From positions 62,001 to 126,000 of the forward strand of contig NZ_SUMC01000021.1 in NCBI RefSeq assembly GCF_005047355.1: a DNA stretch of 64,000 bases, written 5' to 3'. The DNA is from Actinacidiphila oryziradicis (GTDB lineage Bacteria; Actinomycetota; Actinomycetes; Streptomycetales; Streptomycetaceae). The translations under genes were made by a program, and so were the position numbers. Below the pieces are notes generated by a model. It had not been told where the DNA came from and did not search any database. It saw nothing but the letters and a program-made list of their open reading frames with translations. Shown here one piece after another: positions 1 through 17,435 of the stretch; the stretch's first letter is position 1, and the number at the start of each line of letters is the position of its first letter.

Positions 1-121
1 CGGTCGCCGGACCTCCTTGACGTGAGTGGGTTCGATCACTCTAGGGCCTGGCCACGTCCCCGATTGATCTCAGTTCGCACAAGGCTTACGTAGATCAACA
101 ACTCCGCGGTATGCTTTCGCC

Positions 122-1405
122 ATGGTTCACCATGGAGAGCTCCCCATCGAGGTCGGCGCCAGTGTCGAGCTGTTCACCGGCGGCGGCGGACTGGCAATGG
201 CACTGCACGAGGCGGGCTTCCGGCACCTTGTGGTCAACGAGTTCGCCAAGCGCGCCTGCGAGACCTTGCGCAGCAACGTCGCCGTGGACCGCAAGGGGGA
301 GGACCACGTGCCCCAAGGGATGAGCGACCCCTGGCCGCTCATCGAGGGCGACGTCCGCTCGGTGGAGTTCGCCTACCTCCGCGACAGGGTCGACGTGATC
401 GCCGGCGGTCCGCCCTGCCAGCCCTTCAGCCTCGGGGGCGCGCACAAGGGCGACGACGACGAGCGCAACATGTTCCCCGAGCTCTTCCGCGTCGTCCGGG
501 AGACCCGCCCCAAGGCAATCATTTGCGAGAACGTTCGCGGACTGCTCCGAGCGTCCTTCCGCCCCTACTTCGACTACATCTTGCGTGAGCTGGCGCTGCC
601 CTTCGAGGAACGAAGGCCCGGCGCCACCTGGACCGAGCACGACGAGTATCTGCGTGCCAGGGACGCACTCATCCCCCAGGACTCCCCCCAGCGGTACATC
701 GTGACGCCGATGCCGGTCAACGCCGCCGACTTCGGTGTCCCGCAGGTCCGCAACCGCGTCATCATCGTGGCCTTCCGCGCCGACCTTGGAATCAACCGGG
801 AGACCTGGCAACGGGACTTCATGCCCCAGCCCACCCACTCCGAAAACGCGCTCCACCTGTCCATGAGGGACAGCTCCTACTGGCGGCGTCACCGTGTCCC
901 GGCCGACGCCCGTAAGCGCGCCATGGACGCCTTGCCCCAACGCCCGGCCAAGGATGACGGCCTGAAGCCTTGGCGGACGCTGCGGGACGCCTTGTATGGG
1001 AATCCTGACCGCCCTTGGGAGCCCGCACTTCCCACTGACCTCCTGGAGAAGAAGGAGCACCGGGACCCTCGCTTCGTCCACCACCAGGGCTGGCCCGGCG
1101 CCCGCGTCTACGCCGGCCACACACCCAACGTCCTCGACCGGCCAGCCAAAACCGTCAAAGCAGGCGTGCACGGTGTCCCTGGCGGCGAGTCCGTCATGCT
1201 CCTGGACGACACCACACATCGCTACATGACAGTGCGCGAGACCGCCCGTGTCATGACCTTCCCCGACTGGTGGCGCCTGGAGGGACCCCGAGGAGAGCAG
1301 ATGCGCCAGCTCGGCAACGCCGTCCCCGTCCAATTGGGCAAGGTCTTCGCCGAGGCAGTCGTACAAGCCCTGCGCTCGGTCAACGCCCTGTCCGCCAGCG
1401 ACTGA
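122..1405 (+). CDS. C5-cytosine DNA methyltransferase (Dcm/M.HpaII type)
   Basis: Adds a methyl group from S-adenosylmethionine to C5 of cytosine in a specific duplex site. Ordered C5-MTase motifs are visible in the 427 residues: motif I ELFTGGGGLAMAL near residue 16, catalytic motif IV GGPPCQPFS near residue 98, motif VI CENVRG, motif VIII QVRNRVIIVAFR, and the C-terminal motif X RQLGNAVPVQLGKV. The stretch between motifs VIII and X should be the target-recognition domain. Nineteen bases downstream begins a Vsr gene, and no restriction endonuclease is visible, so it acts as a solitary methyltransferase in what is shown. The recognition sequence cannot be read from the protein. Confidence 0.95.
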   Translation: MVHHGELPIEVGASVELFTGGGGLAMALHEAGFRHLVVNEFAKRACETLRSNVAVDRKGEDHVPQGMSDPWPLIEGDVRSVEFAYLRDRVDVIAGGPPCQPFSLGGAHKGDDDERNMFPELFRVVRETRPKAIICENVRGLLRASFRPYFDYILRELALPFEERRPGATWTEHDEYLRARDALIPQDSPQRYIVTPMPVNAADFGVPQVRNRVIIVAFRADLGINRETWQRDFMPQPTHSENALHLSMRDSSYWRRHRVPADARKRAMDALPQRPAKDDGLKPWRTLRDALYGNPDRPWEPALPTDLLEKKEHRDPRFVHHQGWPGARVYAGHTPNVLDRPAKTVKAGVHGVPGGESVMLLDDTTHRYMTVRETARVMTFPDWWRLEGPRGEQMRQLGNAVPVQLGKVFAEAVVQALRSVNALSASD

Positions 1406-1424
1406 GCCGGACGAGGAACCGATC

Positions 1425-2201
1425 ATGGCGCGCACCTGGAACGACCGGCTCCCTCCGGAACAGTCGTGGAAACCCCGCAAAGGCATGACCGCCGCCCTCA
1501 GGACGGCCGAGCAGGACAAGGCCGCCAGTGGCCCCGAGTACCGCCGCGTTCCCCTCCCGAACGGCGGCGACGCCACGGGATCAGTCGCCCTGCGCCTGTA
1601 CCAGCGCACACGTCGGGTGCGCGCCTACCTGCGCTGGTCTGAGCACGGCCGTACTCGTGAGCGGTATATCGGGGAGGTCCGGCAGGCCACCCGGGCGGCC
1701 AACTTGGCCGACGCCTGGGCTCTCGCACGGCAACGCGGCCTGACACTCGTCCCCCGAGTCGGTGTCGAACCCCAGTCCTGGGCGTCCTCGCCAGCCGTCC
1801 GCGCGGTCATGCGCGCCAACCGCGGGCGGGACACGAAGCCCGAGATGCTGCTCCGATCTCAACTGCACCGCATGGGACTGCGCTACCGCGTGGCCGTGCG
1901 CCCGCTGTCACAGGTACGCCGCACGGCCGACGTGGTATTCACCAAGGCCAAAGTCGCGGTCTTCGTCGACGGCTGCTACTGGCATGGATGCCCAGAGCAC
2001 CACCGGCCAGCAACAAAGAACGCGGCCTTCTGGTCCGAGAAGATCGCTGGTAACAAGAGCCGCGACGCCGAAACGGACCAACTCCTCATCAATGCCGGAT
2101 GGACCGTCATCCGAATCTGGGAGCACGAATCCCCTGACGCCGCTGCCGCGACGGTGGCAGCCGCCGTCAAGAGCCGAGAAAGTGATACGACGGGTCCCTG
2201 A
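1425..2201 (+). CDS. vsr: Vsr-type mismatch endonuclease with N-terminal extension
   Basis: Very short patch repair nucleases nick beside T:G mismatches left when 5-methylcytosine deaminates. The C-terminal half (from about residue 115) carries the family signature: RANRGRDTKPEMLLRSQLH, then DVVFTKAKVAVFVDGCYWHG (catalytic Asp and the WHGC zinc/active-site region), then AGWTVIRIWEHE. Typical Vsr proteins are about 135-150 residues. This one has 258 and carries about 110 extra N-terminal residues with a basic patch around QRTRRVRAYLRW that I do not recognise. The gene follows the methyltransferase by 19 bases with an acgagga ribosome site, so the pair is probably one operon protecting methylated sites. 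Confidence 0.92.
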   Translation: MARTWNDRLPPEQSWKPRKGMTAALRTAEQDKAASGPEYRRVPLPNGGDATGSVALRLYQRTRRVRAYLRWSEHGRTRERYIGEVRQATRAANLADAWALARQRGLTLVPRVGVEPQSWASSPAVRAVMRANRGRDTKPEMLLRSQLHRMGLRYRVAVRPLSQVRRTADVVFTKAKVAVFVDGCYWHGCPEHHRPATKNAAFWSEKIAGNKSRDAETDQLLINAGWTVIRIWEHESPDAAAATVAAAVKSRESDTTGP

Positions 2202-2485
2202 CCTGGGCCGAAGCGACGGCATGATGCCCCATGCCCTCCCGCCCGATCGGCACGCCGCGTCGCCTCGATGCGGACAGCCAGCGGTGCCCACCCGTCCCCG
2301 GCGCGTCTCGCCTCATACTCTCGGGCCCACCCGGGCCGATCTGTCTGGATGAGCAAAGGAGCGGGCGGCCTGGAAGGTGAGCACTCCGTCACGCAACGCA
2401 AGGATTCAATCGGGCGAGGCGCGACCTCGCAGGTGCCGTTAGCCTGGTGCGTACCAGGTGAGCGAATCGGGAGTGTGCTCAGGGA
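2202..2485. promoter_or_regulatory. Intergenic control region of the GntR-Nudix gene
   Basis: This 284-bp gap holds no credible gene. Its main feature is a palindromic operator at 2443-2458, annotated separately, about 30 bp before the GntR-Nudix start. Scattered antisense and out-of-frame reading here lacks a ribosome site or family motif. Confidence 0.5.
2443..2458. promoter_or_regulatory. GntR-type operator, site 3 (autoregulatory)
   Basis: CCTGGTGCGTACCAGG is a near-perfect palindrome. It shares CTGGTGCG.ACCAG with the two operator copies ahead of the transfer operon at 4569-4609. It lies 28 bp before the GntR-Nudix ATG, the usual place for autorepression. Binding by that protein is an inference. 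Confidence 0.72.
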
Positions 2486-3292
2486 ATGGGACCGAAGACC
2501 GCGCGGGTTGACCGGACGATCCGGGAGTGGATCGCTACGGGGAAGCTGTCGCCGGGCGACAAGCTGCCGTCTGAGCGCACGTTGACCCAAGAGTTGGACA
2601 TCGGACGCACTGCCCTGCGCCAGGTTCTCGCACGGCTCGTGGCTGAGAGCGTGCTTGAGGTACGGGGGCGCAGTTCCTACCGGGTGCCCGATCGCGACGT
2701 GCCCGGCACGGCGGTGAGCGTTACCCCGCCGGCCAGGCTGGACCCGTGGCAGATCCATGGCGAGCGAACCCTGTACGACAACCGATGGGTAAAGCTAACG
2801 CTAGTTGACGTAGAGCCGCCCGGCGTTGAGCGGTTCGAGCATCACGTCGTACGGCTAGATCACGTCGCCATCGCGGCCGTGATGGATGAGCACGACCGCG
2901 TGCTCATGCTCTGGCGCTACCGCTTCGTACCTCAACAGTGGGGATGGGAGCTCCCGGGCGGCATCGTGGACCAGGGCGAGGACGCTATGGCGTGCGCGCT
3001 GCGCGAAGTCGAGGAGGAGACGGGCTGGCGACCTGACTCCCTTGAGCACGTCGTCACCTATCAGCCGGTGGTCGGCATGGTGGACTCGCCTCACGCCATC
3101 TTCGTTGGGCACGGTGCGCAGCACGTCGGGGAACCGACGGACGTGGAAGAGGCGGGGCGCGTGGCGTGGGTACCGTTGGCGGACATTCCCGGGCTCATGG
3201 CTCGTGGTGAACTGATGGGGTCGGGCACCCTGGTTGCCCTCCTGCACATCCTCGCGTCACGTCGGGGAACGGCGCCTACAGCCGCGCCGTGA
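2486..3292 (+). CDS. GntR repressor fused to Nudix hydrolase (KorSA-Pif-like)
   Basis: The 268-residue protein has two domains. Residues 1-70 form a GntR winged helix (IREWIATGKLSPGDKLPSER, then RTALRQVLARLVAE). Residues about 95-260 form a Nudix fold with an intact box, GGIVDQGED followed by REVEEETGW (GX5EX7REVXEEXG), near residue 158. In pSAM2, the GntR repressor KorSA silences transfer and the Nudix protein Pif blocks redundant transfer between donors; they are separate adjacent genes there. Here one chain appears to combine repressor and immunity roles. The gene runs convergently into the downstream HTH regulator and overlaps it by 17 bp. The function is assigned by domains and context, and the Nudix substrate is unknown. 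Confidence 0.88.
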   Translation: MGPKTARVDRTIREWIATGKLSPGDKLPSERTLTQELDIGRTALRQVLARLVAESVLEVRGRSSYRVPDRDVPGTAVSVTPPARLDPWQIHGERTLYDNRWVKLTLVDVEPPGVERFEHHVVRLDHVAIAAVMDEHDRVLMLWRYRFVPQQWGWELPGGIVDQGEDAMACALREVEEETGWRPDSLEHVVTYQPVVGMVDSPHAIFVGHGAQHVGEPTDVEEAGRVAWVPLADIPGLMARGELMGSGTLVALLHILASRRGTAPTAAP

Positions 3293-4409
3293 GCTGTTCG
3301 ATACGCCGGCGGTAGCGCACCGAGCCCGTGCGGTTGGCAACCAAACGGGCTGCGCGCAGGTGCTCTTGGGCCTGCGCATACTCCTCACGGGCGAGGTGCG
3401 CCGTGGCGAGGTCGAGGCGCAGGCCGGCGGAGGCCCTGACGAATGTGGGGTCCTGGGTGCCGAGGGCATCGTAGAGGCTGCTCACCGCGTCGTCGTCGCC
3501 GAGCAGGGCGAGCGCATGGCCGCGCCAACGGGCCAGGTGTCCGGTGTTGAGGAAGATGCTCAACATATCGGGGTCGCGTGCCTCCTCACCGTCAGGGAGG
3601 TGCGCGTCCGCCAGTTCGAGGGCCTGCCGGCACTCTTTCGGCTTTCCGGCCCTCGCGCACAGTTCGGCTTCGCCGGCGAATAGCCAGGCCCGGAGCCGTG
3701 GCGACATCTGCCCGCCGCCTACCCGCTGGGCACCCCGCATCAGCTCCAACGCCATCTCTGGCCGCCCTGCTTCGTCCAGAACGTAGGCCTGTTCCGCCAT
3801 GGCGTGCGCTAGGTACATGGGCTCTTCGGCCTCTTGGGCGGCCCGCTTGCCTAGTTCGTAGTGCCGCCACGCCCGCTCTACGGCGCCAACGTCCAGCGCT
3901 TGCCAGGCTGCCAAGGTTGCAGCCCCTGCGAGTGCGAGTGCGACAGGGCGGCGCGTGTCGGGAAGCACCGCGAACGTCAGTGCTTCTTCCAGCGTCGCCA
4001 GATGCCCGGTCATCTGGTCCACCAGGCTCACAGCGCCCATCTGACGGTCCATCGTACGTAGCAACTCGGTTTGATCCATGAACGTCTTGACCATGGTCAG
4101 GCTGACGTTCCGTGCCGAGTCGATGCAGCCCAGTAGCTCGTCATACCCGCCCGCGGTACTGGGCGCGTCCAGCTGGCCGCGCCGCCCCGAGAGTTCGGCG
4201 TGCGTCACACCGAGCAGGGCACGCAGGATGGACGCGTACCGCTCTGAGAGCGACCGCCGACCGTTCTCCCACTCCGAGAGGTAGACCCGCAGGCTCGCCG
4301 TAGAGGCGATGTCGAGCATGTGCTGACGAGCGTGGCGCTCAATCTCGCGCACAAGGCGTTCCTGGGACCACCCTCGCGCGGTCCGCGCTTCTCGCAATCC
4401 TGCGCTCAC
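3276..4409 (-). CDS. XRE-family HTH regulator with TPR-like C-terminal region
   Basis: A DNA-binding regulator. The N-terminal HTH (LREARTARGWSQERLVREIE, then YLSEWENGRRSLSERYASIL) spans about residues 5-70. The remaining 300 residues are Ala/Leu-rich helical hairpins such as AWRHYELGKRAAQEAEEPMY and QAQEHLRAARLVANR, resembling tetratricopeptide repeats of Streptomyces regulators. I chose the GTG at 4409 because AGGAGGAG lies 6-7 bases upstream; a longer frame to 4454 has no ribosome site. It faces away from the transfer operon, with a perfect inverted repeat at 4481-4503 in its upstream region as a candidate operator. The regulated genes are unknown, but conjugation control is likely from position. 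Confidence 0.85.
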   Translation of the reverse strand: MSAGLREARTARGWSQERLVREIERHARQHMLDIASTASLRVYLSEWENGRRSLSERYASILRALLGVTHAELSGRRGQLDAPSTAGGYDELLGCIDSARNVSLTMVKTFMDQTELLRTMDRQMGAVSLVDQMTGHLATLEEALTFAVLPDTRRPVALALAGAATLAAWQALDVGAVERAWRHYELGKRAAQEAEEPMYLAHAMAEQAYVLDEAGRPEMALELMRGAQRVGGGQMSPRLRAWLFAGEAELCARAGKPKECRQALELADAHLPDGEEARDPDMLSIFLNTGHLARWRGHALALLGDDDAVSSLYDALGTQDPTFVRASAGLRLDLATAHLAREEYAQAQEHLRAARLVANRTGSVRYRRRIEQLTARL

Positions 4410-4480
4410 GCGTGCTCCTCCTGCCGCTGCTGCGGTGACCACTACCAACAGCATGCCTCACGTTCTCGCAGGTCGTCAGA

Positions 4481-4503
4481 GGTTAACCCGCTTTGGGTTA
4501 ACC
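4481..4503. promoter_or_regulatory. Inverted repeat GGTTAACCC-N5-GGGTTAACC
   Basis: Two perfect 9-bp arms are separated by GCTTT, and each arm contains the symmetric GTTAAC. It lies about 72-94 bp upstream of the HTH regulator start and about 60 bp upstream of the transfer promoter on the other side. It differs from the GntR-type palindrome, so a second regulator, probably the HTH protein itself, is the likely ligand. Confidence 0.6.
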
Positions 4504-4563
4504 CCTGTTGGCTACCGGCCGGGTGCACGGGGGGCTTCTCTGGGAGGCGTCACAGGGAAGCCC

Positions 4564-4591
4564 TTGACATCTGGTGCGCACCAGATAGAGA
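4564..4591 (+). promoter_or_regulatory. Probable sigma-70-like promoter of the transfer operon
   Basis: A perfect -35 hexamer TTGACA (4564-4569) is followed after 16 bp by TAGAGA (4586-4591), a fair -10. The entire spacer is operator site 1, so repressor binding would block RNA polymerase directly. The start of transcription is not determined. Confidence 0.62.
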
Positions 4592-4609
4592 CTTCTGGTG
4601 CGCACCAGA
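4569..4609. promoter_or_regulatory. Tandem GntR-type operators, sites 1 and 2
   Basis: ATCTGGTGCGCACCAGAT (4569-4586) and TCTGGTGCGCACCAGA (4594-4609) are perfect palindromes sharing a 16-bp core, with centres 24 bp apart. Site 1 fills the -35/-10 spacer and site 2 covers the likely start point. A near-copy lies before the GntR-Nudix gene at 2443-2458. This fits repression of transfer genes by a KorSA-like protein. Confidence 0.8.
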
Positions 4610-4844
4610 TGGGGCGTCTTGGTCAACTGACCAGGGCCTCTCTGTCGGTGCTCAACAACAGGGGATGTCACCCACACGGTCACCCGGACCAGAACACGGG
4701 AGGTCACGCAGGCACCTAGCCGCCTGGACCTACGCAGATGGGGGTCACATCCCGGGCGCCGAAGAACCGCTTCGCAGGCGGATGACCAAAGAACTAGGAA
4801 CCCAAAACCCAAGCCATTACAGGGCCCACGTCGCCATCACGGGC

Positions 4845-4874
4845 GCGGCCCCGGTGCTGACACACCGGGGCCGC
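4845..4874 (+). promoter_or_regulatory. GC-rich leader hairpin before the transfer operon
   Basis: GCGGCCCCGGTG (4845-4856) and CACCGGGGCCGC (4863-4874) pair perfectly around a 6-nt loop, 34 nt before the DUF6284 ATG. There is no U-tract, so it may be a factor-independent terminator of Streptomyces type, an attenuator or an mRNA-stabilising element. Confidence 0.55.
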
Positions 4875-4908
4875 TGTTCGGGCCGTCCCTTCGAGAGGAC
4901 TACGACCC

Positions 4909-5181
4909 ATGAGCAACATCGTTCCTGATCAGGAGGCTGTTACCGCCTCCGATTTCGACCGCGAGCCGACCGAGGCCGAGCTTGCCGACATCGACCTTGA
5001 GATGCCCGTCATCCTCGCCGAAGTCGAGCTGCTGGATGTACAGATCAGCCTGTTGGACCGTCCGCTGCACCCGATCAACTGGCGTCGGCTGCGGCGGGCG
5101 GAACACCGCCTGCTCGCCGCACGCTCCTGGCTCGCCGCCGCCGAGACCGAGCTTGCTCAGTTCCTGGGGGCCAGGGCATGA
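4909..5181 (+). CDS. DUF6284 family protein, first gene of transfer operon
   Basis: A 90-residue acidic, mostly helical protein (EPTEAELADIDLEMPVILAE, then LHPINWRRLRRAEHRLLAAR). It matches the DUF6284 small proteins that commonly head AICE transfer operons in Streptomyces. No membrane segment or catalytic motif is visible, and the role is unknown. It has an aggactacgaccc leader before the ATG, and its stop overlaps the next start as ATGA, implying translational coupling. Confidence 0.8.
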   Translation: MSNIVPDQEAVTASDFDREPTEAELADIDLEMPVILAEVELLDVQISLLDRPLHPINWRRLRRAEHRLLAARSWLAAAETELAQFLGARA

Positions 5182-5366
5182 ACATCTCTTCCCCACGCGG
5201 ACTGGCGCTGGTGCTGGTCATGCTCGGCAGTGTCATCGCCGTCACGGGTTCCGTGAGCGCCCTGGTGACCGGCGACCGGCACCTGATGGGCATCGCCGCT
5301 GTCGGGTTCGCCGTGCAGTTCGCCGGATGGGTCCTGCACGGCCGCCGGAACGGCGGTGCGCGATGA
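5178..5366 (+). CDS. Small two-helix membrane protein
   Basis: Sixty-two residues with two hydrophobic stretches (GLALVLVMLGSVIAVTGSVS and MGIAAVGFAVQFAGWVLH) separated by a short charged loop and ending in basic residues, so it should sit in the membrane as a hairpin. Start and stop both overlap neighbours by 4 bp. Position suggests an Spd-like accessory of plasmid spread, but no family is certain. Confidence 0.72.
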   Translation: MNISSPRGLALVLVMLGSVIAVTGSVSALVTGDRHLMGIAAVGFAVQFAGWVLHGRRNGGAR

Positions 5367-6007
5367 GCACCCTGATATCCGCCGCCACGATGGCCGGCCC
5401 GCTCGCCGCCGGCTGGTCCGTCCACACGCTGTGGATGCGCCGCCGGATCGAAGCGGCGCGGCGCGACCCGCTCACTGGCCTGCTGACCCGCGACGGCTTC
5501 ACCAAACGTGCCGAGTGGCTGATGAACCGCACCCCGGTGGCGGTCCTGGTCATCGACCTCGACGGCTTCAAGGCCATCAACGACACCCACGGCCACCACG
5601 CCGGCGACGCGATCCTGACCCAGGCCGCCCGCCGCATCTCCACCACGACCATCGGCGGTGTCCGGGGACGCCTGGGAGGTGACGAGTTCGCCGCCGTCGT
5701 CCCGCTGCCCGACCCCGCCCGCCTGCCAGCGCGGTTGCGGCAGACCCACGAATACCTGACCGCGCCGGTGGACTTCGAGGGTGACGAGCTGCTGATAGGC
5801 GCCTCCATCGGCGGTATCTGGAGCGGCACCTACCCCGTGGACCTCTCGCGGGCACTGCGGCGGGCGGATGAGGCGATGTACGCCGTCAAGCGCACCGGCG
5901 GCGGATGGATGGCCGCCACCAACCCCGAGCCCACCCAGCCCAGCGTCAACGGCCGCCGCGACGGCCGCCCCGGCACCGGCAACGCCCCGGAAGGAGCCAC
6001 ACCATGA
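5363..6007 (+). CDS. GGDEF-domain protein (putative diguanylate cyclase)
   Basis: The 214-residue protein starts with a short hydrophobic segment (LISAATMAGPLAAGWSVHTL), then carries a GGDEF domain: DPLTGLLTRDGF, VLVIDLDGFKAINDTHGHHAGD, and an intact GGDEF motif (GRLGGDEFAAV). The residues that bind metal and GTP are present, so c-di-GMP synthesis is plausible. The inhibitory RxxD site five residues before GGDEF is absent. In Streptomyces, c-di-GMP controls BldD and the developmental switch, so an AICE-borne cyclase could tie transfer to growth stage; this is inference. It overlaps both neighbours by 4 bp in the operon. Confidence 0.9.
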   Translation: MSTLISAATMAGPLAAGWSVHTLWMRRRIEAARRDPLTGLLTRDGFTKRAEWLMNRTPVAVLVIDLDGFKAINDTHGHHAGDAILTQAARRISTTTIGGVRGRLGGDEFAAVVPLPDPARLPARLRQTHEYLTAPVDFEGDELLIGASIGGIWSGTYPVDLSRALRRADEAMYAVKRTGGGWMAATNPEPTQPSVNGRRDGRPGTGNAPEGATP

Positions 6008-7116
6008 CCCCCACACCGGATGCCGCCGTGCGGGCGGCGGTGCCGCCGCTGAGCAGGGCGGAGAAGTTCTTGCTCGGCTTCGCCGCCGTCTTCGGCGTCG
6101 GGGTCGGCGGGATCGGCCTGGTCGCCTCCTTCGCCACTGTCACCGCCGCCGGCGCCCGCTGGGGCTTCGCCACCCCCCAGACGCTCCCGATCGGCATCGA
6201 CACCGCCATCCCCGTCTTCACCGTCGTCAACCTCCTTCTCATCCGAATGGACATGCCCCTGGCATGGGTCCGCTGGGTGCCCTGGGCGCTCACCGGCGTG
6301 ACGTGCTGGCTCAACATCGCCGCCGGACAATCGATGGTGGCCAAGCTCGCGCACGGCACCATGCCTCTGCTGTGGGTGGTCCTCTCCGAGGTCGCCGCCC
6401 ACGTCTACGCCTCCCGCATCGGCGCGGTCACCGGACGCCGGATGGACAAGATCCGCCGCTCCCGCTGGATCCTCGCACCGCTGTCGACCTTCACCCTGTG
6501 GCGCCGCATGACGCTGTGGGAGATCACCTCCTACGACACCGCCCTGACCCGCGAACGCGACCGCCAGTTGGCCCGCGCGGACCTGCGCGAGACCTACGGC
6601 CGCAGGTGGCGGCGATCGACCCCGCGCCGCACCCGCGTCCTGCTCAAGCTAGGCGAACTCGCACCCGCCGCACCGCCCGCGATCGACCAGACCGCAAACC
6701 AGGATCAAACGGCGGCAACGTCCGTAAATCAGTCGGGGTATGACCTGCCCGAATCGACCCCCACACCCGCCGCCCCGGTGGTCGATGCATCGGCCGGCAG
6801 CGTGCCGACCGCCGCCCCGACCGAAGTGGAGGCCGTGGCCGATCGATCGGGCCTTCCCGTCGTCGCGCTCGCGACGACTACGGCGGCGCCGCGTCGGGCG
6901 ACCGGTCGGGTACCGGCCGCCGCCCGCACCCCCCGACCGCGCCGCACCGCCGACCAGCTTCTGCTGGAGGCGCGGGAGGTGACGGCCGGGTGGGAGGACG
7001 ACGCGTTGACCGGTGAGGCGATCCGCAGGGCCCTGCGTACCGCGCCGGACAAGGCCCGTGTGCTGCGCGAGACGCTGAAGGCTGAGCGCGCCGCCGTGGG
7101 CGCTCCGGCGTCGTGA
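6004..7116 (+). CDS. DUF2637 membrane protein
   Basis: The N-terminal half (about residues 18-130) contains four hydrophobic segments (for example FLLGFAAVFGVGVGGIGLVA, IPVFTVVNLLLI, PWALTGVTCWLNIAAG, TMPLLWVVLSEVAAHVYA), the DUF2637 pattern seen next to TraB-like pumps in AICEs. A basic stretch (RDRQLARADLRETYGRRWRR) and a disordered Ala/Pro/Thr linker follow, ending in a helical tail that may bind DNA or partners. The ATG at 6004 overlaps the GGDEF stop. A role as a membrane anchor or pore partner of the DNA pump is inferred from context. Confidence 0.82.
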   Translation: MTPTPDAAVRAAVPPLSRAEKFLLGFAAVFGVGVGGIGLVASFATVTAAGARWGFATPQTLPIGIDTAIPVFTVVNLLLIRMDMPLAWVRWVPWALTGVTCWLNIAAGQSMVAKLAHGTMPLLWVVLSEVAAHVYASRIGAVTGRRMDKIRRSRWILAPLSTFTLWRRMTLWEITSYDTALTRERDRQLARADLRETYGRRWRRSTPRRTRVLLKLGELAPAAPPAIDQTANQDQTAATSVNQSGYDLPESTPTPAAPVVDASAGSVPTAAPTEVEAVADRSGLPVVALATTTAAPRRATGRVPAAARTPRPRRTADQLLLEAREVTAGWEDDALTGEAIRRALRTAPDKARVLRETLKAERAAVGAPAS

Positions 7117-7484
7117 GGTTCTACGACCCGACCGGCGCGAAGTACGGGTTGCCCACTTACCCGTTCCGTCTCGCGCCGGACGAGTACGCCACCCGCCGCC
7201 AGCTGAGGGCGGCCGGCCTGCGGCCGGGCGGGCAGGACGTCGCCGCTCAGCTCATGTGGCGCTCGCGCCGCTACGGCCGCCGCGTCCGCATCGCCTACCT
7301 GTACCGCACCGACCGCGCCAAGCCGGTGCGGCCGATGACGCCCGCGAAGTGGGCCGCCCTGGCCCTGGCGAACGCCGCCCGCCGCGTCTGCCCGCAATGC
7401 CGCACGGATGCCGGATACATCATCTCCACCTCGCTCGGCATGTGCGTGACCTGCGCATTCCCCGAAGAACAGCGCGCCGCATAA
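7113..7484 (+). CDS. RRQRL-motif zinc-binding protein
   Basis: A 123-residue protein with the conserved TRRQLRAAGLRPGG segment near residue 28 that names this AICE family, and a C-terminal four-Cys ribbon (CPQC then CVTC, 15 residues between the pairs) likely to bind zinc. The GTG start overlaps the DUF2637 stop as GTGA. It lies immediately before the DNA pump gene, so an adaptor role in DNA transfer is possible, but no function is known to me. Confidence 0.8.
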   Translation: MRFYDPTGAKYGLPTYPFRLAPDEYATRRQLRAAGLRPGGQDVAAQLMWRSRRYGRRVRIAYLYRTDRAKPVRPMTPAKWAALALANAARRVCPQCRTDAGYIISTSLGMCVTCAFPEEQRAA

Positions 7485-7522
7485 CCCCCTCCCGCCTACT
7501 CGACCTGAGGAGCAGACCAACC

Positions 7523-9712
7523 GTGTCTGAGAGCAACGACTTTGACCACAAGCCGGAGCCGGAGAGCTCCGGGGCCGCGGTCTACGACATCACCACCAAG
7601 CGTCCCGCGTCCCTGCCGGCCGATGCCCCGATAACCGAGCAGGCCGCGGCGCCCGTCGCCGCGCCCGACACGGAAGACGACGGGGAGCAGGTGGAGCCGC
7701 ACGCGGTGCGGCTGGTGGACTCCCCGGACCTGCCCTCCCCGGGGATCCGGGTGGACAAGCGCAAGCCGATCGTGCCGACCTGGCTGCGCTCGAAGCCGGG
7801 GTTCGTCTCCACGGTGCAGCGGGCGGCCGGCAACGCCTTCTACGCCACCGTCTTCCACGGCATCCGCACCCCCTGGTACGCCCTCCAACTGGGGGTGCTC
7901 GCCCCGCGCGGCGTGGCGCGGATGGTCGGTGACACCCGGCGTTGGGTGTGGGACGCCGAGGGCGCGCCGTTGCGCGCCTATGAGGTGGCCCACGAGCGCA
8001 CCGCCGAGTACCTGAAGCTGTCCCGGCAGCGCGATGACCGGGTGCGGCTGCGGGTGCTGGTCACCACCGTCGCGGCCGTGTTCGGGACGGTGTTCGCGCT
8101 GGCCCTGTACGTGATGGCGCCCTTCTGGCTCGCGGTGCTGGCCTCTGCCGCGGTGCTGGTCGCGGGCTTCTGGGGCTCGCCGAAGGACCACCCCGTCATC
8201 GGGCCCGCGGTGCTGAAGACCGAGGTGCAAAAGCTCACCGGATCGATCGTGATGCGGGGTCTGGACAACATCGGAAACGCGAAGATCTCCGCCGCCATCA
8301 AGAAGGGCGGTGACATGAACGGCATGCGGTTCACCTCCGAGATCACCCGGGACGGGCCCGGCTACCGCGCCGACCTGGACCTTCCCTGGGGTGTCACCCC
8401 GGAGGACATCATGGAGTCCCGCAAGGCGCTGGCCTCGGGTCTTCGCCGCAAGGTCGGGTGCGTGTGGCCGGCCGCAGACCCCACCGAGCACGACGGACGG
8501 CTCATCTTGTGGGTGGGCGACAAGCCCATGAACGAGACGAAGAAACCCGCATGGCCCCTGCTCAAATCCGGGACGGTGGACCTGTTCCGGCCGGTGGTGT
8601 TCGGCAACGACCAGCGGATGAGCGACGTGTCGGTGACGCTCATGTTCGCCTCCGTCGTCGTCGGCTCCATCCCCCGCATGGGCAAGACGTTCCTGATGCG
8701 CCTGTTCCTGCTCATCGCAGCCCTGGACCCGCGCGCGGAGGTCTACGCGTTCGACTTCAAGGGCACCGGCGACTTCGGCGCCCTGGAACCGGTCTGCCAC
8801 CGCTACCGCGCCGGCGACGAAGACGAAGACATCCTCTACGTCCTGAACTCCCTGCGGGAGCTGCGGGAGGAGCTGCGGCGCCGGGCGAAGGTGATTAAGT
8901 CCCTGCCGCGCTCGCGCTGCCCGGAGTCCAAGGTCACCCCCGAACTGGCGAACGACAAGGCGCTCGGACTGCACCCGATCGTGGCCGGGTTCGATGAGTG
9001 CCAAGTGCCGTTCGAGCACGAGAAGTACGGCGCGGAGATCGAGGACATCGCCACCGACCTGGGTAAGCGCGGTCCCGCGCTGGGCATCGTGACGCTGTTC
9101 GGCACGCAGCGCCCGGACGCGAAGTCCCTGCCCACCGGCATCTCCGCAAACGCGGTGCTGCGGTTCTGCCTGAAGGTGATGGGCCAGCCGGCCAACGACA
9201 TGGTGCTCGGCACCTCGATGTACAAGGCGGGCTACCGGGCCACCATGTTCTCCCGCACCGACCGGGGCATTTGCTGGATGGCCGGTGAAGGCGACGACCC
9301 CCGCATCGTGGCGTCCGCGTTCGTGGACGCGGTGGGAGCCGAGCAGGTCGTCACCCGCGCCCGGAAGATGCGCGAGGCCTACGGCAACGTCACCGGCCAC
9401 GCCATCGGGCAGCAGCCCGCCGCCAGTGGAGCAGGGTTCGACCTGCTCGCCGACGTGCTGCGGGTCGTGCCGGCCGATGAGGACAAGGTGTGGAACGAGA
9501 AGGTCGCCGCCCGCCTGGCAGACCTTCGCCCGGAGGTCTACGGCGGATGGAAGGCCGCGACCGTGGCGACGAACCTGCGCACCCACGGCATCGCCGCCCT
9601 GGACGTGTGGGGCACCACCGAGGCCGGCAAGGGCACCACCCGCCGCGGCATCGCCCGCGCCGACCTCACCACCGCAATCACCCAGCGTGACAAGGATCAG
9701 TCGCGGAGCTGA
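7523..9712 (+). CDS. FtsK/SpoIIIE-type conjugative DNA translocase (TraB-like)
   Basis: This is the motor expected to pump double-stranded DNA from mycelium to mycelium. GTG at 7523 is preceded by gaggagcag, giving 729 residues. Order: acidic disordered N-terminus, a hydrophobic double segment (about residues 172-216: VRVLVTTVAAVFGTVFALAL onward), and an ATPase domain with Walker A GSIPRMGKT near residue 380 and Walker B IVAGFDECQ near residue 490. The C-terminal about 80 residues (VWNEKVAARLADLRPEVYGGW onward) look like the winged-helix gamma-like domain that reads clt repeats in TraB proteins. An array of 8-bp words begins 9 bp after the stop. Confidence 0.93.
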   Translation: MSESNDFDHKPEPESSGAAVYDITTKRPASLPADAPITEQAAAPVAAPDTEDDGEQVEPHAVRLVDSPDLPSPGIRVDKRKPIVPTWLRSKPGFVSTVQRAAGNAFYATVFHGIRTPWYALQLGVLAPRGVARMVGDTRRWVWDAEGAPLRAYEVAHERTAEYLKLSRQRDDRVRLRVLVTTVAAVFGTVFALALYVMAPFWLAVLASAAVLVAGFWGSPKDHPVIGPAVLKTEVQKLTGSIVMRGLDNIGNAKISAAIKKGGDMNGMRFTSEITRDGPGYRADLDLPWGVTPEDIMESRKALASGLRRKVGCVWPAADPTEHDGRLILWVGDKPMNETKKPAWPLLKSGTVDLFRPVVFGNDQRMSDVSVTLMFASVVVGSIPRMGKTFLMRLFLLIAALDPRAEVYAFDFKGTGDFGALEPVCHRYRAGDEDEDILYVLNSLRELREELRRRAKVIKSLPRSRCPESKVTPELANDKALGLHPIVAGFDECQVPFEHEKYGAEIEDIATDLGKRGPALGIVTLFGTQRPDAKSLPTGISANAVLRFCLKVMGQPANDMVLGTSMYKAGYRATMFSRTDRGICWMAGEGDDPRIVASAFVDAVGAEQVVTRARKMREAYGNVTGHAIGQQPAASGAGFDLLADVLRVVPADEDKVWNEKVAARLADLRPEVYGGWKAATVATNLRTHGIAALDVWGTTEAGKGTTRRGIARADLTTAITQRDKDQSRS

Positions 9713-9853
9713 CCCCGGTCCGGTGCTAGGTCTAGCACCCCCGGGTGCTAGACCTAGCACCTCTACTAGCACCCCATCCTGTGCCTGAGCTGTGATCTCG
9801 TACCTAGCAGCCGACCTGCGCAAACACCCGAAACCTTAGCCGGAAGGCACCCC
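9713..9853. promoter_or_regulatory. Intergenic region after the pump gene with candidate clt array
   Basis: A 141-bp gap with a dense array of short repeats (annotated at 9722-9773) followed by partial matches (acctagcag near 9811). No gene is visible. The AT-content of the CTAG-rich array is higher than that of its surroundings. Confidence 0.6.
9722..9773. repeat. Array of five GGTGCTAG/CTAGCACC words, candidate clt locus
   Basis: Exact copies lie at 9722-9729 (+), 9732-9739 (-), 9744-9751 (+), 9754-9761 (-) and 9766-9773 (-). The first four build a perfect inverted repeat of two 19-bp arms (9722-9740 and 9743-9761). TraB pumps of Streptomyces plasmids bind clusters of 8-bp words at the clt locus, often at the 3' end of traB. 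Position, word length and copy number fit this. An operator for the downstream small genes is the alternative. Confidence 0.68.
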
Positions 9854-10105
9854 GTGACCCCCTTCCTCCTTGCTAGTGCCTGCCTCCTCGCCGTCACGCT
9901 CTGTTACGCGGGTCTGTGTGCGGTGCAGCCGTTCGCGGACTGCCGCCGCTGCCACGGCATGGGCCACGCGACCAAGACCACCCGCCGCGGCACCCTCAAG
10001 CGCGGCAAGGACTGCCGCCACTGCAAAGCCACCGGCAAGCGCATACGCACCGGCCGCCACCTGTACAACCTGTGGCGCCGCACCCACCGCGACGGCACCC
10101 GGTAA
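9854..10105 (+). CDS. Small membrane-anchored double zinc-knuckle protein
   Basis: Eighty-three residues with an N-terminal hydrophobic helix (FLLASACLLAVTLCYAGLC) followed by two DnaJ-like knuckles, CRRCHGMGH and CRHCKATGK, each a CxxCxGxG-type loop, then a basic tail. Together the two CxxC pairs could bind one zinc ion. The GTG start follows a ccggaagg ribosome site. The arrangement suggests a membrane-tethered protein that contacts nucleic acid or protein in the transfer machinery; I know no established function. Confidence 0.72.
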   Translation: MTPFLLASACLLAVTLCYAGLCAVQPFADCRRCHGMGHATKTTRRGTLKRGKDCRHCKATGKRIRTGRHLYNLWRRTHRDGTR

Positions 10106-10110
10106 CCAAC

Positions 10111-10593
10111 GTGTCCGGTCTCATCCCCACCGCCGACCTCCCCGGCCTGTGGGTCAGCGCACCACCGGACCTACGCAACTGGCAGACCCTCGCCACCACC
10201 CCGCGCGCGGTGTTCGTCTGCCGCTGCGGACTCACCCGCCGCGCCACCGGCACCGCCGCGGTCGCCGCCCTGGTCGCCGAATGGAACAGCCACCGCGGCG
10301 ACTGCCCGGCCGTGCCGCTGCGGCCGTGCCAGCACTGCGGCACCCCCACCACGGGCCGCTCCCACCGCACGCAGAGCTGGCCCGCCTGCCCCGACTGCCA
10401 CGCCGCATGGCAGCTGCGCCCCGAAGAGCAGCGCCGCCGCGAGCAGGCGGCCAAGTCCGTCGGGCGGCGGGAGCGGCAGCGCCGACAGACCCGCCGCACC
10501 CGCCGCTATCTCGAATCGACCGGCGTCAGTGCGCAGGTGGCCGCCGCCATCGTCAGCGGCGCACTGGCCGAGCCCGACGAACCCACCCCCTGA
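10111..10593 (+). CDS. Cys-rich zinc-finger-like hypothetical protein
   Basis: A 160-residue protein with a CRCG pair, then CQHCGTPTTGRSH and CPDCHAAW, typical zinc-ribbon spacing, followed by a strongly basic helix (residues about 108-140, RREQAAKSVGRRERQRRQTR). The GTG at 10111, 5 bp after the previous stop, is preferred over upstream in-frame starts inside the preceding gene. DNA or RNA binding is likely from the basic helix, but no family is recognised. Confidence 0.65.
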   Translation: MSGLIPTADLPGLWVSAPPDLRNWQTLATTPRAVFVCRCGLTRRATGTAAVAALVAEWNSHRGDCPAVPLRPCQHCGTPTTGRSHRTQSWPACPDCHAAWQLRPEEQRRREQAAKSVGRRERQRRQTRRTRRYLESTGVSAQVAAAIVSGALAEPDEPTP

Positions 10594-10626
10594 CGCCGCC
10601 CCACACGCCCGGAAGGAAGCACGCCC

Positions 10627-10818
10627 GTGCTGGTCTCCATCTCCCTCGCCCTGCTCTTCGGCGGCATCCTCGCCGTCCTGCTCAAGACCGGATCGCTCAA
10701 GGGCGGGAGCGCCTTCATCGCCACGATGTTCGGCTTCTACCTCGCCTCCACCGGCCTGAACGGCCCCATCACCGAGCTGACCATCTCCACCGTCCACACC
10801 CTCAACGGCCTGCTCTAG
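10627..10818 (+). CDS. SpdD-like small membrane protein
   Basis: Sixty-three residues with two hydrophobic segments (SISLALLFGGILAVLLK and FIATMFGFYLASTGLNG). The GTG start sits 7 bases after ggaaggaag. Small membrane proteins at this place in Streptomyces plasmids and AICEs (Spd proteins) help spread transferred DNA between hyphal compartments. The name rests on position and topology rather than sequence proof. Confidence 0.6.
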   Translation: MLVSISLALLFGGILAVLLKTGSLKGGSAFIATMFGFYLASTGLNGPITELTISTVHTLNGLL

Positions 10819-10841
10819 GACCAGATACGGGAGCCCCCGCC

Positions 10842-11486
10842 ATGACCGAGCACTTCACCCCAGCCGGGTCGGCCGGCCGCCACTGGCTCGCCGACGCCGT
10901 CCCCAAAGCCGCACCCGCCCTCGCCACCTCCACCGTGCTCGCCCTCGCCCGGATCTGGAACGCAGGCGGCGCCGAGCACTCCACCGGTGACGCCTGGCTC
11001 ATGGGCACCCTCGCCACCGGCACCGCCGTCGCCGGCGGCCTACTGTCCACCGGCCAGCATGGCGACAGCACCGCCGCCGCGATCGTCTACGCCGGATCCG
11101 GGGCCCTCGCCTTCGGCGGCATCGCCGCCTACACCGACGGCCTGCCCCTGCCCCTGCTGCTGTGGGCCATCGCCACCGTCCTCGGCTACACCCTCGCCGC
11201 CCGCTACTGGCGCACCGACCGCCGCGAAACCATCGCCTACCAGCGCCGGACCGAAGAGCGTCGCGAGACCCACCGGCACGTCGAAACCGTCGAAGCCATC
11301 CGCGCACGCGCCCAGGTCGATATCGCCCGGGTGCAGATCGACGTCGCCAACGCCGGCGTCGCCCAAGCCACCGCCCTGGTAGAGGCCATCACCGCCCGCA
11401 ACGCCCTGCCCGGCTTCAACCCCGCCGCCCTCATCGGCAACCACCTGCCCGAACTCCCCGCCACCATCACCACCAAGGAGCACTGA
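10842..11486 (+). CDS. Spd-like membrane protein with C-terminal coiled coil
   Basis: The 214-residue protein begins with a soluble stretch, then two or three membrane helices (about residues 25-115, e.g. LATGTAVAGGLLSTG, IVYAGSGALAFGGIAAYT, PLPLLLWAIATVLGYTLAA). A long charged helix follows (TDRRETIAYQRRTEERRETH, then VEAIRARAQVDIARVQIDVA) that should form a cytoplasmic coiled coil. Such membrane-plus-coil proteins occur among Spd accessory factors that interact with TraB. It ends 4 bp before the next gene. Confidence 0.68.
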   Translation: MTEHFTPAGSAGRHWLADAVPKAAPALATSTVLALARIWNAGGAEHSTGDAWLMGTLATGTAVAGGLLSTGQHGDSTAAAIVYAGSGALAFGGIAAYTDGLPLPLLLWAIATVLGYTLAARYWRTDRRETIAYQRRTEERRETHRHVETVEAIRARAQVDIARVQIDVANAGVAQATALVEAITARNALPGFNPAALIGNHLPELPATITTKEH

Positions 11487-11490
11487 CCCC

Positions 11491-11892
11491 GTGACCGACC
11501 CGCACACCGGCGCCGGATTCGACGCCCCCACACCCGCCGCCGCCTACGCCGACGCACCACCCCTCATCCGCGAGATCAGCACCGTGCTCACCCTGACCGT
11601 CAGGCTCGTCAGGCCCGGGGAGCGCACCGGTCAGGCCGTCCGTGAGCAGCGGCTGCGTAAGGCAGCGGTGTTGGACCGGATCGCGCTGCAGGAAGCCGAC
11701 ACGTACGCGCCCGCGGTTGCTGCCGACGCCGTCACCACCGCGGCGGCCGCAGCCCACGCCCTCGCCGACTACGACCGCGAGCACGGCACGAGCGCCGGGC
11801 CCATCGGCCCCGGCTCGCCGGAGTGGGACCCCTCGCACCGGCCCTACGTCCGCCAGGAATACGCAGCCTGGCACAACGCCACCCGCACCTAG
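11491..11892 (+). CDS. Hypothetical protein, last gene of transfer operon
   Basis: A 133-residue soluble protein without membrane segments. The middle part (PPLIREISTVLTLTVRLVRP, then AVREQRLRKAAVLDRIALQE) is predicted helical, and the C-terminus (SPEWDPSHRPYVRQEYAAWH) is aromatic. GTG start 4 bp after the previous stop with ggagcactgacccc as leader. I do not recognise a family. Its spacing says it is cotranscribed with the Spd-like genes. Confidence 0.6.
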   Translation: MTDPHTGAGFDAPTPAAAYADAPPLIREISTVLTLTVRLVRPGERTGQAVREQRLRKAAVLDRIALQEADTYAPAVAADAVTTAAAAAHALADYDREHGTSAGPIGPGSPEWDPSHRPYVRQEYAAWHNATRT

Positions 11893-15674: not shown

Positions 15675-15875
15675 GTGAGCACCGCTACAGCGCCCGTCGC
15701 GCCGCTCCTCTACACGCCAGAGGAAGCCGCCGAGGCACTACGGATAGGACGTTCCACGGTCTACGAACTGATGGCAGACGGGACGTTGAAGTTCGTCAAG
15801 CGCGGTCGGTCGCGCCGCATCCGCGTGACCGACCTCGAAACATACGTGGCCGGGCTAGCCACGGAATCCAACTGA
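15675..15875 (+). CDS. xis: Excisionase (Xis), MerR-like HTH
   Basis: Sixty-six residues with a single winged helix-turn-helix: LYTPEEAAEALRIGRSTVYE, then LKFVKRGRSRRIRVTDLETY. This is the usual AICE recombination directionality factor; it bends DNA at the attachment site so that the integrase excises the element. The GTG start follows a gcgaggaggcaccacc ribosome site. It lies 58 bp before int with a terminator-like hairpin between. Confidence 0.88.
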   Translation: MSTATAPVAPLLYTPEEAAEALRIGRSTVYELMADGTLKFVKRGRSRRIRVTDLETYVAGLATESN

Positions 15876-15888
15876 ACACAGAGCAACC

Positions 15889-15917
15889 GAGGCGGGCCGG
15901 TCACACCGGCCCGCCTC
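15889..15917 (+). terminator. Hairpin between xis and int
   Basis: GAGGCGGGCCGGT (15889-15901) and ACCGGCCCGCCTC (15905-15917) pair perfectly over 13 bp with a 3-nt loop. It could attenuate int expression relative to xis. The GGAGGA ribosome site of int begins 8 bases after it. Confidence 0.7.
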
Positions 15918-15933
15918 TCGCATTGGAGGAAGC

Positions 15934-17316
15934 GTGAGCTCCCGCAAACCCAACATGGAATCGTCCGTCTACCTGGGGAATGACGGGTGGTGGCACGGTC
16001 GCGTCACGATGGGGATGAAGAGCGACGGGACACCCGACCGCCGCCACCGTCGCGCGAAGACCGAGGCGGAAGTCCGCCGCAAGGTCAAGGAGCTGGAGAA
16101 GCAGCGCGACGCCGGCCGCGCGCCCAAGGCGGGCCGCATCCCGACCGTGGCGAAGTGGATGGACACCTACCTCGGCACCATCGCGGTGCACAAGCTCAAG
16201 CCCCGGTCGCTCGATGACTACTGGTCAAAGACCCGCAACGACATCATCCCCAATATCGGCGCGCACCGCCTCGACCGCCTGCGGCCGGAGCACCTGGACG
16301 AGATGTACGCCGCCCTGCTCAAGAAGGGCCGCGCGCCGTCCCACGTGCTGAAGGTGCACCGCATCCTCTCCCGCGCGCTGAAGATCGCGCACCGTCGCGA
16401 ACTGGTCGGCCGGAACATCGCGACCCTGGTGGACCCGCCGAGCGTGGACGAGGAAGAGGTGAACCCGTTCACCCAGGAGGAGGCGCGCGCCTTCCTCCAT
16501 GCCGCCACCAAGCGGCCTACCGCACTCCGGTGGGCCCTCGGGGTGGGTCTCGGCATCCGGCAAGGAGAATCGCTGGGCCTGCGATGGACGTACGTCGATC
16601 TGGACGCCGGGCACCTGAAGACGCTGTGGCAGCTTCAGCGCCTCACCTGGCGCCATGGGTGCGAGGACCCGCATGCCTGCGGCGCCCGGCTGCACCGGTT
16701 CGAGCCGTGCCCGTCCGGCTGCACCACGCATAAGGACTACAAGCGAGGGTGCCCGAAGCCATGCCCGCCGAAGTGCGCGAAGCACGCGAGCACCTGCCCG
16801 GACCGGCAGGGCGGCGGTCTGGTCTTCACCCGGCCGAAGACCAAGAAGAGCCGCCGCATCATCCCCATCCCGCCGCCGCTCATCCCATTCCTGCGCGAGC
16901 ACCGCGCCCGCCAGGAAGAACAGCGGGCGGCGGCCGGTGAGGCGTGGGAGGAACACGACGTGGTGTTCGCGCGGCCGGACGGTAGGCCGCTTGACCCGCG
17001 CCAGGACTGGCAGGAGTTCAAGGACCTGCTTGAGGAGTCGGGCATCTCGGACCGGCGCCTCCATGACAGCCGCCACACCGCAGGCACGATCCTGAATGAG
17101 CTGGGAGTGGACATCCGGACCATCATGGAAATCTTCGGCCACTCCGGGCTCAACATGACCCGCCGGTACGTGCACGCCACGACACCCCTCACGGAGGAGG
17201 CGGTCCGCCGGATGGGAGACGCGCTCTGGCCGGAGCCTGAAGCCAAAACTGAGACCAAGACTGAGCCCACGCCATCACGCGACGCTCGCGCACGCCGCCG
17301 CAGGCGCATCCAGTAA
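15934..17316 (+). CDS. int: Tyrosine site-specific integrase
   Basis: A 460-residue recombinase that integrates the element into tRNA-Thr. Order: N-terminal arm-binding part (SVYLGNDGWWHGRVTMG), SAM-like core-binding domain (residues about 65-150), and the catalytic domain with Arg in LGIRQGESLGLRW, HDSRHTAGT (H-x-x-R) near residue 373, GHSGLN and the nucleophile in MTRRYVHAT. An unusual Cys-rich insert (about residues 240-290, with 11 cysteines including CEDPHACG, CPSGCTTH, CPKPCPPKC) splits the catalytic domain. GTG at 15934 has GGAGGA upstream. A terminator separates it from the tRNA. Confidence 0.95.
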   Translation: MSSRKPNMESSVYLGNDGWWHGRVTMGMKSDGTPDRRHRRAKTEAEVRRKVKELEKQRDAGRAPKAGRIPTVAKWMDTYLGTIAVHKLKPRSLDDYWSKTRNDIIPNIGAHRLDRLRPEHLDEMYAALLKKGRAPSHVLKVHRILSRALKIAHRRELVGRNIATLVDPPSVDEEEVNPFTQEEARAFLHAATKRPTALRWALGVGLGIRQGESLGLRWTYVDLDAGHLKTLWQLQRLTWRHGCEDPHACGARLHRFEPCPSGCTTHKDYKRGCPKPCPPKCAKHASTCPDRQGGGLVFTRPKTKKSRRIIPIPPPLIPFLREHRARQEEQRAAAGEAWEEHDVVFARPDGRPLDPRQDWQEFKDLLEESGISDRRLHDSRHTAGTILNELGVDIRTIMEIFGHSGLNMTRRYVHATTPLTEEAVRRMGDALWPEPEAKTETKTEPTPSRDARARRRRRIQ

Positions 17317-17356: not shown

Positions 17357-17361
17357 ATGTG

Positions 17362-17435
17362 AGCCGCCTTCGGGATTCGAACCCGAGACCTACGCATTAC
17401 GAGTGCGTTGCTCTGGCCAACTGAGCTAAGGCGGC
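17362..17435 (-). tRNA. tRNA-Thr(CGU), AICE attachment target
   Basis: The minus strand reads a complete cloverleaf: acceptor GCCGCCT pairing with AGGCGGC, D arm GCTCAGTTGGCCAGAGC, anticodon stem ACGCA/TGCGT around loop CTCGTAA (anticodon CGT), and T arm with GGTTCGAATCC. The 3' end faces int, so integration occurred at the tRNA 3' half and left an intact gene here. CCA is not encoded. Confidence 0.95.

Follow-up and report, generated by a model that had tools for sequence, protein, structure and literature searches.

This report concerns a 64-kb stretch (the window) of the genome of Actinacidiphila oryziradicis (contig NZ_SUMC01000021.1, positions 62,001 to 126,000), which holds most of an integrative conjugative element, and in particular a gene of that element for a protein with an N-terminal GntR helix-turn-helix (HTH) domain and a Nudix domain. 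The gene sits in a ~25-kb actinomycete integrative and conjugative element (AICE) integrated in a tRNA-Thr gene; the host genome comprises 11.5 Mb in 389 contigs. The palindrome CTGGTGCGNACCAG is found before the GntR-Nudix gene and twice on the putative promoter of the transfer genes. The best explanation, which we hold with considerable confidence from comparison of related loci, is that the GntR-Nudix protein is the transfer repressor of the AICE and acts through TGGT-N4-ACCA operators. The features concerned are:

2486..3292, plus strand: GntR HTH-Nudix fusion protein, 268 residues (open reading frame, translation, Pfam GntR and NUDIX, AlphaFold2 model)
2501..2686, plus strand: GntR winged-helix domain, residues 6-67 (Pfam)
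2861..3187, plus strand: Nudix domain, residues 126-234, with an intact box and a fold like that of ADP-ribose pyrophosphatases
2443..2458, no strand: predicted own-gene operator, CCTGGTGCGTACCAGG, with one asymmetric pair near the centre
4564..4593, plus strand: transfer promoter, inferred by eye, with -35 TTGACA at 4564-4569, an 18-bp spacer and a -10-like GAGACT at 4588-4593
4569..4586, no strand: predicted operator 1 of the transfer promoter, ATCTGGTGCGCACCAGAT, perfect, in the -35/-10 spacer
4594..4609, no strand: predicted operator 2 of the transfer promoter, TCTGGTGCGCACCAGA, perfect, over the expected transcription start

The N-terminal domain belongs to the GntR family (PF00392; 4.5e-17, 61.9 bits against a cut-off of 27), and residues 126-234 match NUDIX at 4.8e-19. 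These matches and the translation agree with the first-pass annotation, which had described the protein as a GntR HTH joined to an intact Nudix box. None of the C-terminal domains of the named GntR subfamilies (FCD, UTRA, aminotransferase, YtrA, AraR) is present, and Pfam shows NUDIX alone after the HTH. The HTH also matches PHROG 19898, which has no assigned function (1.3e-23), and, at an E value of 0.005, the entry 1v4r, named 'Transcriptional Repressor', which we take to be TraR of the Streptomyces plasmid pSN22. TraR of pSN22 is a GntR-type repressor of Streptomyces plasmid transfer genes, and we know of no Nudix domain in it. The AlphaFold2 model of the fusion, made with 52 sequences, has a mean predicted local distance difference test score of 89.6 and a predicted template modelling score of 0.67, and is uncertain at residues 72-74 and the final six. 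In the HTH, R31, R41, T42 and R45 are unchanged in all 81 fusions compared.

The first-pass annotation had placed a shared core at the three sites listed above, one of them in the promoter spacer, and its positions are correct to the base. The core, TGGTGCG[C/T]ACCA, conforms to the TGGT-Nx-ACCA or GT-Nx-AC signature given for GntR operators in the accessible part of PMC7797058. At 2443-2458 its 14 bp lie 29-42 bp upstream of the ATG. When up to two mismatches are allowed, the core yields 17 strand-hits in the window against a shuffle mean of 3.69, and 17 is reached in none of 100 shuffles; outside the three places, the rep, xis and int genes included, the window contains no site with 0-1 mismatches. 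The whole genome has five exact copies, every one of them at its two GntR-Nudix loci. The second GntR-Nudix gene, on contig C388, is 80% identical and has two exact sites as well as a one-mismatch site near its own start.

The scheme that we infer comprises binding, dimerisation, repression, enzyme activity and cross-silencing. A GntR dimer would read TGGT-N4-ACCA, with R31 and R41 each contacting one G of TGGT. NagR and FadR each use a pair of arginines to contact two adjacent guanines in every half-site (PMC4333415, accessible part), and on our reading, aided by alignments of the HTH, R31 and R41 would occupy the places of these arginines. Two dimers, on operators 1 and 2, would occupy the spacer and the transcription start and so shut off the transfer operon, and a third on 2443-2458 would restrain the GntR-Nudix gene. 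The transfer operon would come on when the element enters a repressor-free cell or when repression lifts. An incoming copy would stay silent in a cell where a copy, or a relative with the same operator, is already resident.

Comparison of related sequences demonstrates that the predicted operator tracks the GntR domain and that its position on the promoter is conserved. In named genomes, the best 80 of 137 related loci were surveyed for the pair of sites on the transfer promoter (the twin); one of them, L060, is too short for the survey, and 76 of the remaining 79 have two sites with at most one mismatch. Shuffled stretches of the relatives, five per locus, come no closer than two mismatches. 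Most of these 76 relatives have TTGAC 5' of operator 1, the start-to-start distance of their operators is 24 bp (48 loci), 25 bp (25), 22 bp (2) or 21 bp (1), and a short stretch such as GCAATCT separates them. This consensus supports the promoter layout proposed for the window.

A draw of 293 genomes of the order gives the same picture. The exact twin is present in 48 genomes at 49 places, 48 of which lie 1852-2115 bp from the start of a GntR-Nudix hit with at least 62% identity (n=58). The remaining place, in G163, is on a 7.7-kb contig that also encodes residues 1-344 of the XRE-type regulator described below, while contig 1 of G163 ends with the fusion gene and, after it, the code for XRE residues 334-377; since the XRE parts complement each other across the two contigs, twin and fusion seem to form one split locus. 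No twin-bearing genome among the 293 lacks a GntR-Nudix hit at that identity, and 48 of the 58 hits have the exact twin in cis. Loss of the palindromes from fusion-bearing relatives, which the first-pass annotation had named as the finding that would count against its proposal, is thus the exception in both draws. The draws overlap, as L075 and G219, to judge by their length of 217,351 bp, seem to be one contig. Hits below 60% identity were left out of the 58, and no twin is owed to such hits alone because each twin genome also has one of the 58. Also left out was G133, a partial Nudix hit (63%, residues 110-243, one stop), where the GntR domain (by profile) and the twin are both absent. Two of the 58 are not full fusions: G096 has the Nudix part only and no twin, and G226 has the twin. 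At the latter locus (G226:C10, L172:1700-2562) GntR and Nudix lie in two overlapping frames, as two genes or a broken fusion, with an intact twin and an own-gene site nearby.

A scan of 297 genomes of the family for TTGAC-NN-operator found the motif once each in 10 genomes, always 2.0-2.1 kb from a GntR-Nudix hit, with TTGAC on the other strand in G098. The fusions of L168 (64% identity) and L169 (62%) retain R31, R41, T42 and R45 together with TGGTGCG[CT]ACCA sites. Among the relatives, L171 (NZ_CP071873.1, 27,773 bp, an S. formicae 'plasmid') is mostly a head-to-tail repeat of a fusion-bearing element of ~10.4 kb, and this could reflect either a concatemer formed by the excised circle or the way the record was assembled.

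A second regulatory gene lies between the fusion gene and the transfer promoter:

3276..4409, minus strand: NsdA-family XRE-TPR regulator, its gene convergent with that of the fusion; GTG start at 4409 chosen by eye, longest open reading frame from 4454
4481..4503, no strand: perfect inverted repeat GGTTAACCC-N5-GGGTTAACC before the XRE gene, read from the sequence

The protein matches the NCBIfam NsdA family with 155 bits against a cut-off of 75 and is likely the second regulator of the element; GGTTAACCC-N5-GGGTTAACC is probably its operator. Paired GTTAAC-like half-sites precede the XRE gene in 67 of 76 relatives. The control for the fusion was a set of 17 stretches of 4.7 to 20 kb (L151-L167) around unfused relatives of the Nudix domain. 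An XRE match is present at 79 of the 80 fused loci and, as an XRE-TPR relative, at 15 of the 17 unfused ones, and the twin is found at none of the 17. The absence is weak evidence at L151 and L161 because their contigs are short (4.7 and 7.1 kb). L151 was counted as unfused; a fragment of a GntR domain precedes its Nudix in another frame, and the locus may be a broken fusion or a broken pair. In L152-L156 a distinct GntR gene lies past the XRE match, with R31 and R45 of its HTH replaced; the one scanned, in L154, encodes a GntR-UTRA protein. In L161 a GntR gene that keeps R31, R41, T42 and R45 adjoins the Nudix gene.

That the XRE-TPR protein binds the palindromes, and that the GntR-Nudix protein is not the repressor, is very unlikely. 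In its favour, almost every fused locus has an XRE gene close to the twin, reading divergently from the transfer promoter, and three fused loci without the twin (G049, one G073 locus and G171:C127) also lack a close XRE gene. Yet the unfused loci have an XRE gene without the twin, although these XRE proteins are only 35-44% identical, and at G219 the twin is missing even though a 74% identical XRE protein and the fusion are both encoded. A conserved GTTAAC pair belongs to the XRE gene itself, and a form of it also stands before XRE in the unfused, twin-less loci L158 and L163. TGGT-N4-ACCA, moreover, is a GntR-type signature, and the third palindrome sits before the GntR-Nudix gene. Because the twin tracks the fusion loci and is absent from unfused loci with XRE, the GntR domain very probably binds it, and in all probability the palindromes serve the GntR-Nudix protein as operators, predicted to act on the transfer promoter.

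Streptomyces clt sites (cis transfer loci) are short repeats, and the twin palindromes lie at the start of the transfer region. The idea that they are a clt read by the FtsK/TraB-like translocase, and not operators, is nonetheless scarcely credible. An S. formicae element with a 78% identical fusion has the same TGGTGCGCACCA core, although its FtsK-like protein is not significantly similar to the window's, and in the second element of the host genome the translocase is just 46% identical whereas the operator cores are identical. The locking of the twin to the -35 and -10, and the copy before the repressor gene, also speak against clt. On these comparisons both the XRE protein as binder and the clt site were set aside.

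Several observations weigh against a GntR-Nudix repressor acting at these sites. Its basis is comparison, and the sites and activities are predicted from sequence. A strict promoter scan found no promoter within 4400-5000, which we attribute to the weak -10 of the window. At L161, on its 7.1-kb contig with the transfer side cut off, the GntR gene is present and no TGGT-ACCA palindrome is found. L075, L076 and L077 have the fusion without the twin at the transfer promoter. In the order-wide draw the exact twin is missing from 7 of 55 genomes with a GntR-Nudix hit and, in cis, from 10 of the 58 hits, part of which can be explained individually. Among these ten, the locus of G163 is split over contigs, and the profile finds no GntR domain in G096. 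G069 and G278 each pair an exact site with one that has a single mismatch; at one G073 locus just one exact site is present, and the single sites of G019 have diverged. The transfer side is devoid of such a site at G049, the other G073 locus, G171:C127 and G219, of which only G219 has a close XRE gene. The transfer side of such twin-less fusion loci seems to have been exchanged. Finally, 25 of 80 relatives have no own-gene site with fewer than five mismatches.

This last count limits the generality of self-repression. A site with 2-3 mismatches lies within 100 bp upstream of the fusion gene in 50 of the 80 relatives, against 0.7 expected, and one with at most three mismatches lies at -60 to -20 in 49. 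Its commonest form, CTGGTACGCACCAC, overlaps TACGCT, which could be the -10 of the fusion gene in these relatives. In 11 of the 25 relatives without the site another palindrome of 16 bp is found at -73 to -85 (two with CGTCAG):

CTACTCACGTGAGTAG, 73-85 bp before the fusion gene: L002, L007, L009, L012, L013, L014, L018, L019, L021, L023, L024

An own-gene site as a rule of the family was rejected on account of the 25. In the window element, where the exact site overlaps the presumed start region, self-repression is likely. The first-pass annotation had the protein repress both itself and the transfer operon; the transfer operators are upheld by the comparison and self-repression is retained for this element, not for the family. 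The counts of own-gene and twin sites suggest that autoregulation, though common, can be replaced, while the transfer promoter is almost always under this control.

The Nudix half appears to be an enzyme. The Nudix box consensus, GX5EX7REUXEEXGU, is complete in the translation, as expected of a Nudix hydrolase, and its residues G159, E165, R173, E174, E177, E178 and G180 show no change in any of 81 fusions or across 52 aligned proteins, fused and unfused. The predicted structure resembles nucleoside diphosphate (NDP)-sugar and ADP-ribose pyrophosphatases and shows the fold of the latter; the VIA structure listing spans mainly residues 81-263 and is uninformative on the HTH fold. The nearest PDB sequence is the ADP-ribose pyrophosphatase 1mk1 (1.4e-13). 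The Nudix half is most likely an active pyrophosphatase of the ADP-ribose/NDP-sugar type and probably doubles as a dimerisation unit.

The union of the two domains may have arisen more than once. Another fusion is found at a further locus:

L170:9295-10422: single-frame protein comprising a tandem pair of GntR HTH domains plus a Nudix domain

In the tree its Nudix domain stands with those of L164 and L165, which are unfused, and the approximately unbiased test rejects the placing of all fusions in one clade (p-AU 0.0004), with the caveats that the tested group was chosen after viewing the tree and that L170 is on a long branch. The palindrome-bearing fusions are drawn with L151 among them, and their separation from L151 is not rejected (p 0.096). 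L170 is apparently a second, independent GntR-Nudix fusion. It has a different palindrome, CTAGACGTCTAG, directly after the presumed -10 of its transfer-side promoter, and L157 and L166 have yet another at the same promoter place, as judged by eye. As these palindromes differ there, the place of the operator seems conserved while the repressor and the sequence change.

What the Nudix domain contributes to repression is less certain. It is quite possible, if somewhat short of probable, that repression works as proposed and that the Nudix domain is an independent Pif-like immunity or nucleotide-clearing enzyme that merely shares the polypeptide. The unfused loci have the same kind of Nudix protein beside XRE, lacking the GntR domain and keeping the catalytic residues. 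As the enzyme is retained there, its function probably arose before the fusion did, which favours independence. Pif of pSAM2, a Nudix-domain protein, was shown to stop redundant exchange between carriers (PMC3218068, accessible part). Against independence stands the apparent joining of GntR and Nudix at least twice, together with their adjacency as separate genes in L161, which suggests that coupling them pays.

The apparently repeated fusion, and the fold resembling ADP-ribose pyrophosphatases, would also suit a ligand sensor, in which an ADP-ribose-like nucleotide, bound or cleaved, alters DNA affinity in the manner of NrtR. MsNrtR joins a Nudix domain to an HTH and is freed from DNA by ADP-ribose, but its Nudix box is altered and inactive (PMC6800001, as far as its accessible text goes), whereas the box is intact here. 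A full enzyme would destroy its own signal, and no ligand is known for a GntR-Nudix sensor, so that this reading is rather unlikely. More doubtful still is a wider proposal, in which the fusion would be immunity and switch in one molecule. The Nudix domain would remove or read an ADP-ribose-like nucleotide that rises on mating or nicotinamide adenine dinucleotide (NAD) stress, and so set the grip of the repressor; the near-invariant operator would unite most members of this large family of Streptomyces elements in a cross-immunity group, where an established element shuts down related newcomers, and Nudix and GntR would have been joined at least twice for that purpose.

Like KorSA of pSAM2, the protein would be a GntR-family repressor of an AICE, and Sezonov is said to have reported in 2000 that KorSA binds sites before its own gene and before its key target. 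Unlike in pSAM2, where KorSA and Pif are separate proteins, the HTH is here fused to Nudix, and in contrast to the KorSA system the predicted operators lie directly on the promoter before the transfer genes. In the accessible text of PMC3218068, an AICE survey, KorSA (GntR) and Pif (Nudix) appear as two distinct proteins, and KorSA is stated to repress pra, and hence replication and transfer; according to the same text it was unknown at the time (2011) how Pif-type immunity works and on which elements it acts. With Pif the protein shares a Nudix domain in an AICE (PMC3218068, same portion), while homology and immunity are matters of analogy, and 'fused korSA and pif of pSAM2' is likewise an analogy.

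NrtR, too, combines Nudix with an HTH and is an autorepressor (PMC6800001, accessible text), but here the domain order is reversed, the HTH is of GntR type, the Nudix box is intact and the predicted targets are transfer genes. The protein does not belong to the NrtR family: the NCBIfam NtrR model gives 26.6 bits against a cut-off of 400, and the sites are at its own gene and the transfer promoter. NagR and FadR share the GntR HTH, with the difference that Nudix replaces their UTRA or FCD effector domain.

The architecture is common, as both Pfam domains are found in all 120 listed of 1837 related proteins, which bear database names such as 'NUDIX domain-containing protein' and 'GntR family transcriptional regulator'. 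GntR and XRE regulators and a NUDIX hydrolase are given as AICE genes in the accessible part of PMC11706625, and an HTH-nudix gene is reported for Streptomyces ICE01 in PMC9513070, whose accessible text contains no analysis of it and specifies neither its HTH type nor any operators. No study of a GntR-Nudix fusion or its operator was found in the literature searched, most subscription papers lying outside that search. The comparisons support GntR-Nudix control well, as a variant of the kor-type regulation known from conjugative elements of Streptomyces.

With the Nudix domain joined to an operator-reading domain, and the operator predicted, the link between Nudix chemistry and transfer control becomes directly testable. 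The near-invariant operator predicts mutual repression of different elements in one cell, as would apply to the two elements of this genome, and dozens of related elements share the putative switch at the same place, so that one could restrain its relatives. Such repression would bear on the number of AICEs per Streptomyces and on their spread.

The remaining features belong to the integration module and the transfer region:

15675..17316, plus strand: excisionase (15675-15875) and tyrosine integrase (15934-17316) of the element
17361..17404, no strand: attachment (att) repeat of 44 bp within the tRNA-Thr gene, with an exact second copy ~25.1 kb leftward
4909..9712, plus strand: presumed transfer operon, taken as a single operon from its tight spacing
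4909-5181, plus strand: DUF6284 gene, first of the presumed operon, with a small open reading frame next
5363-6007, plus strand: GGDEF (diguanylate cyclase) gene inside the presumed operon
6004-7116, plus strand: DUF2637 gene of the presumed operon, with a small open reading frame next
7523-9712, plus strand: FtsK/SpoIIIE-like protein of the presumed operon

The tRNA-Thr(CGT) gene is adjoined by the integrase and excisionase genes, and the left att copy, at window coordinate about -7787, lies beyond the window. The element thus has the tyrosine integrase, excisionase, tRNA and att repeats of an AICE, and also the FtsK-type transfer protein and replication genes. From left to right the order is C5-methylase, Vsr-like nuclease, GntR-Nudix, the convergent XRE-TPR gene, the transfer run, and the Prim-Pol and DUF3987 replication genes. 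The C5-cytosine methylase and then the Vsr-like nuclease (122-2201) lie inside the 25-kb att-bounded element.

The FtsK/SpoIIIE-like protein matches phrog_1358 at 7.5e-22 and has no match in the Pfam and NCBIfam scans. The GGDEF protein has a counterpart, 40% identical, in the second element of the genome. An Rfam scan of window positions 1-18000 gave nothing besides the tRNA. In the leader of ~310 bases between the transfer promoter and the first gene, a strong hairpin, GGCCCCGGTG..CACCGGGGCC, is present at 4847-4872. Directly 3' of the FtsK-like gene, at 9723-9760, are the twin palindromes GTGCTAGGTCTAGCAC and GTGCTAGACCTAGCAC, possibly a second operator pair or a transfer site.

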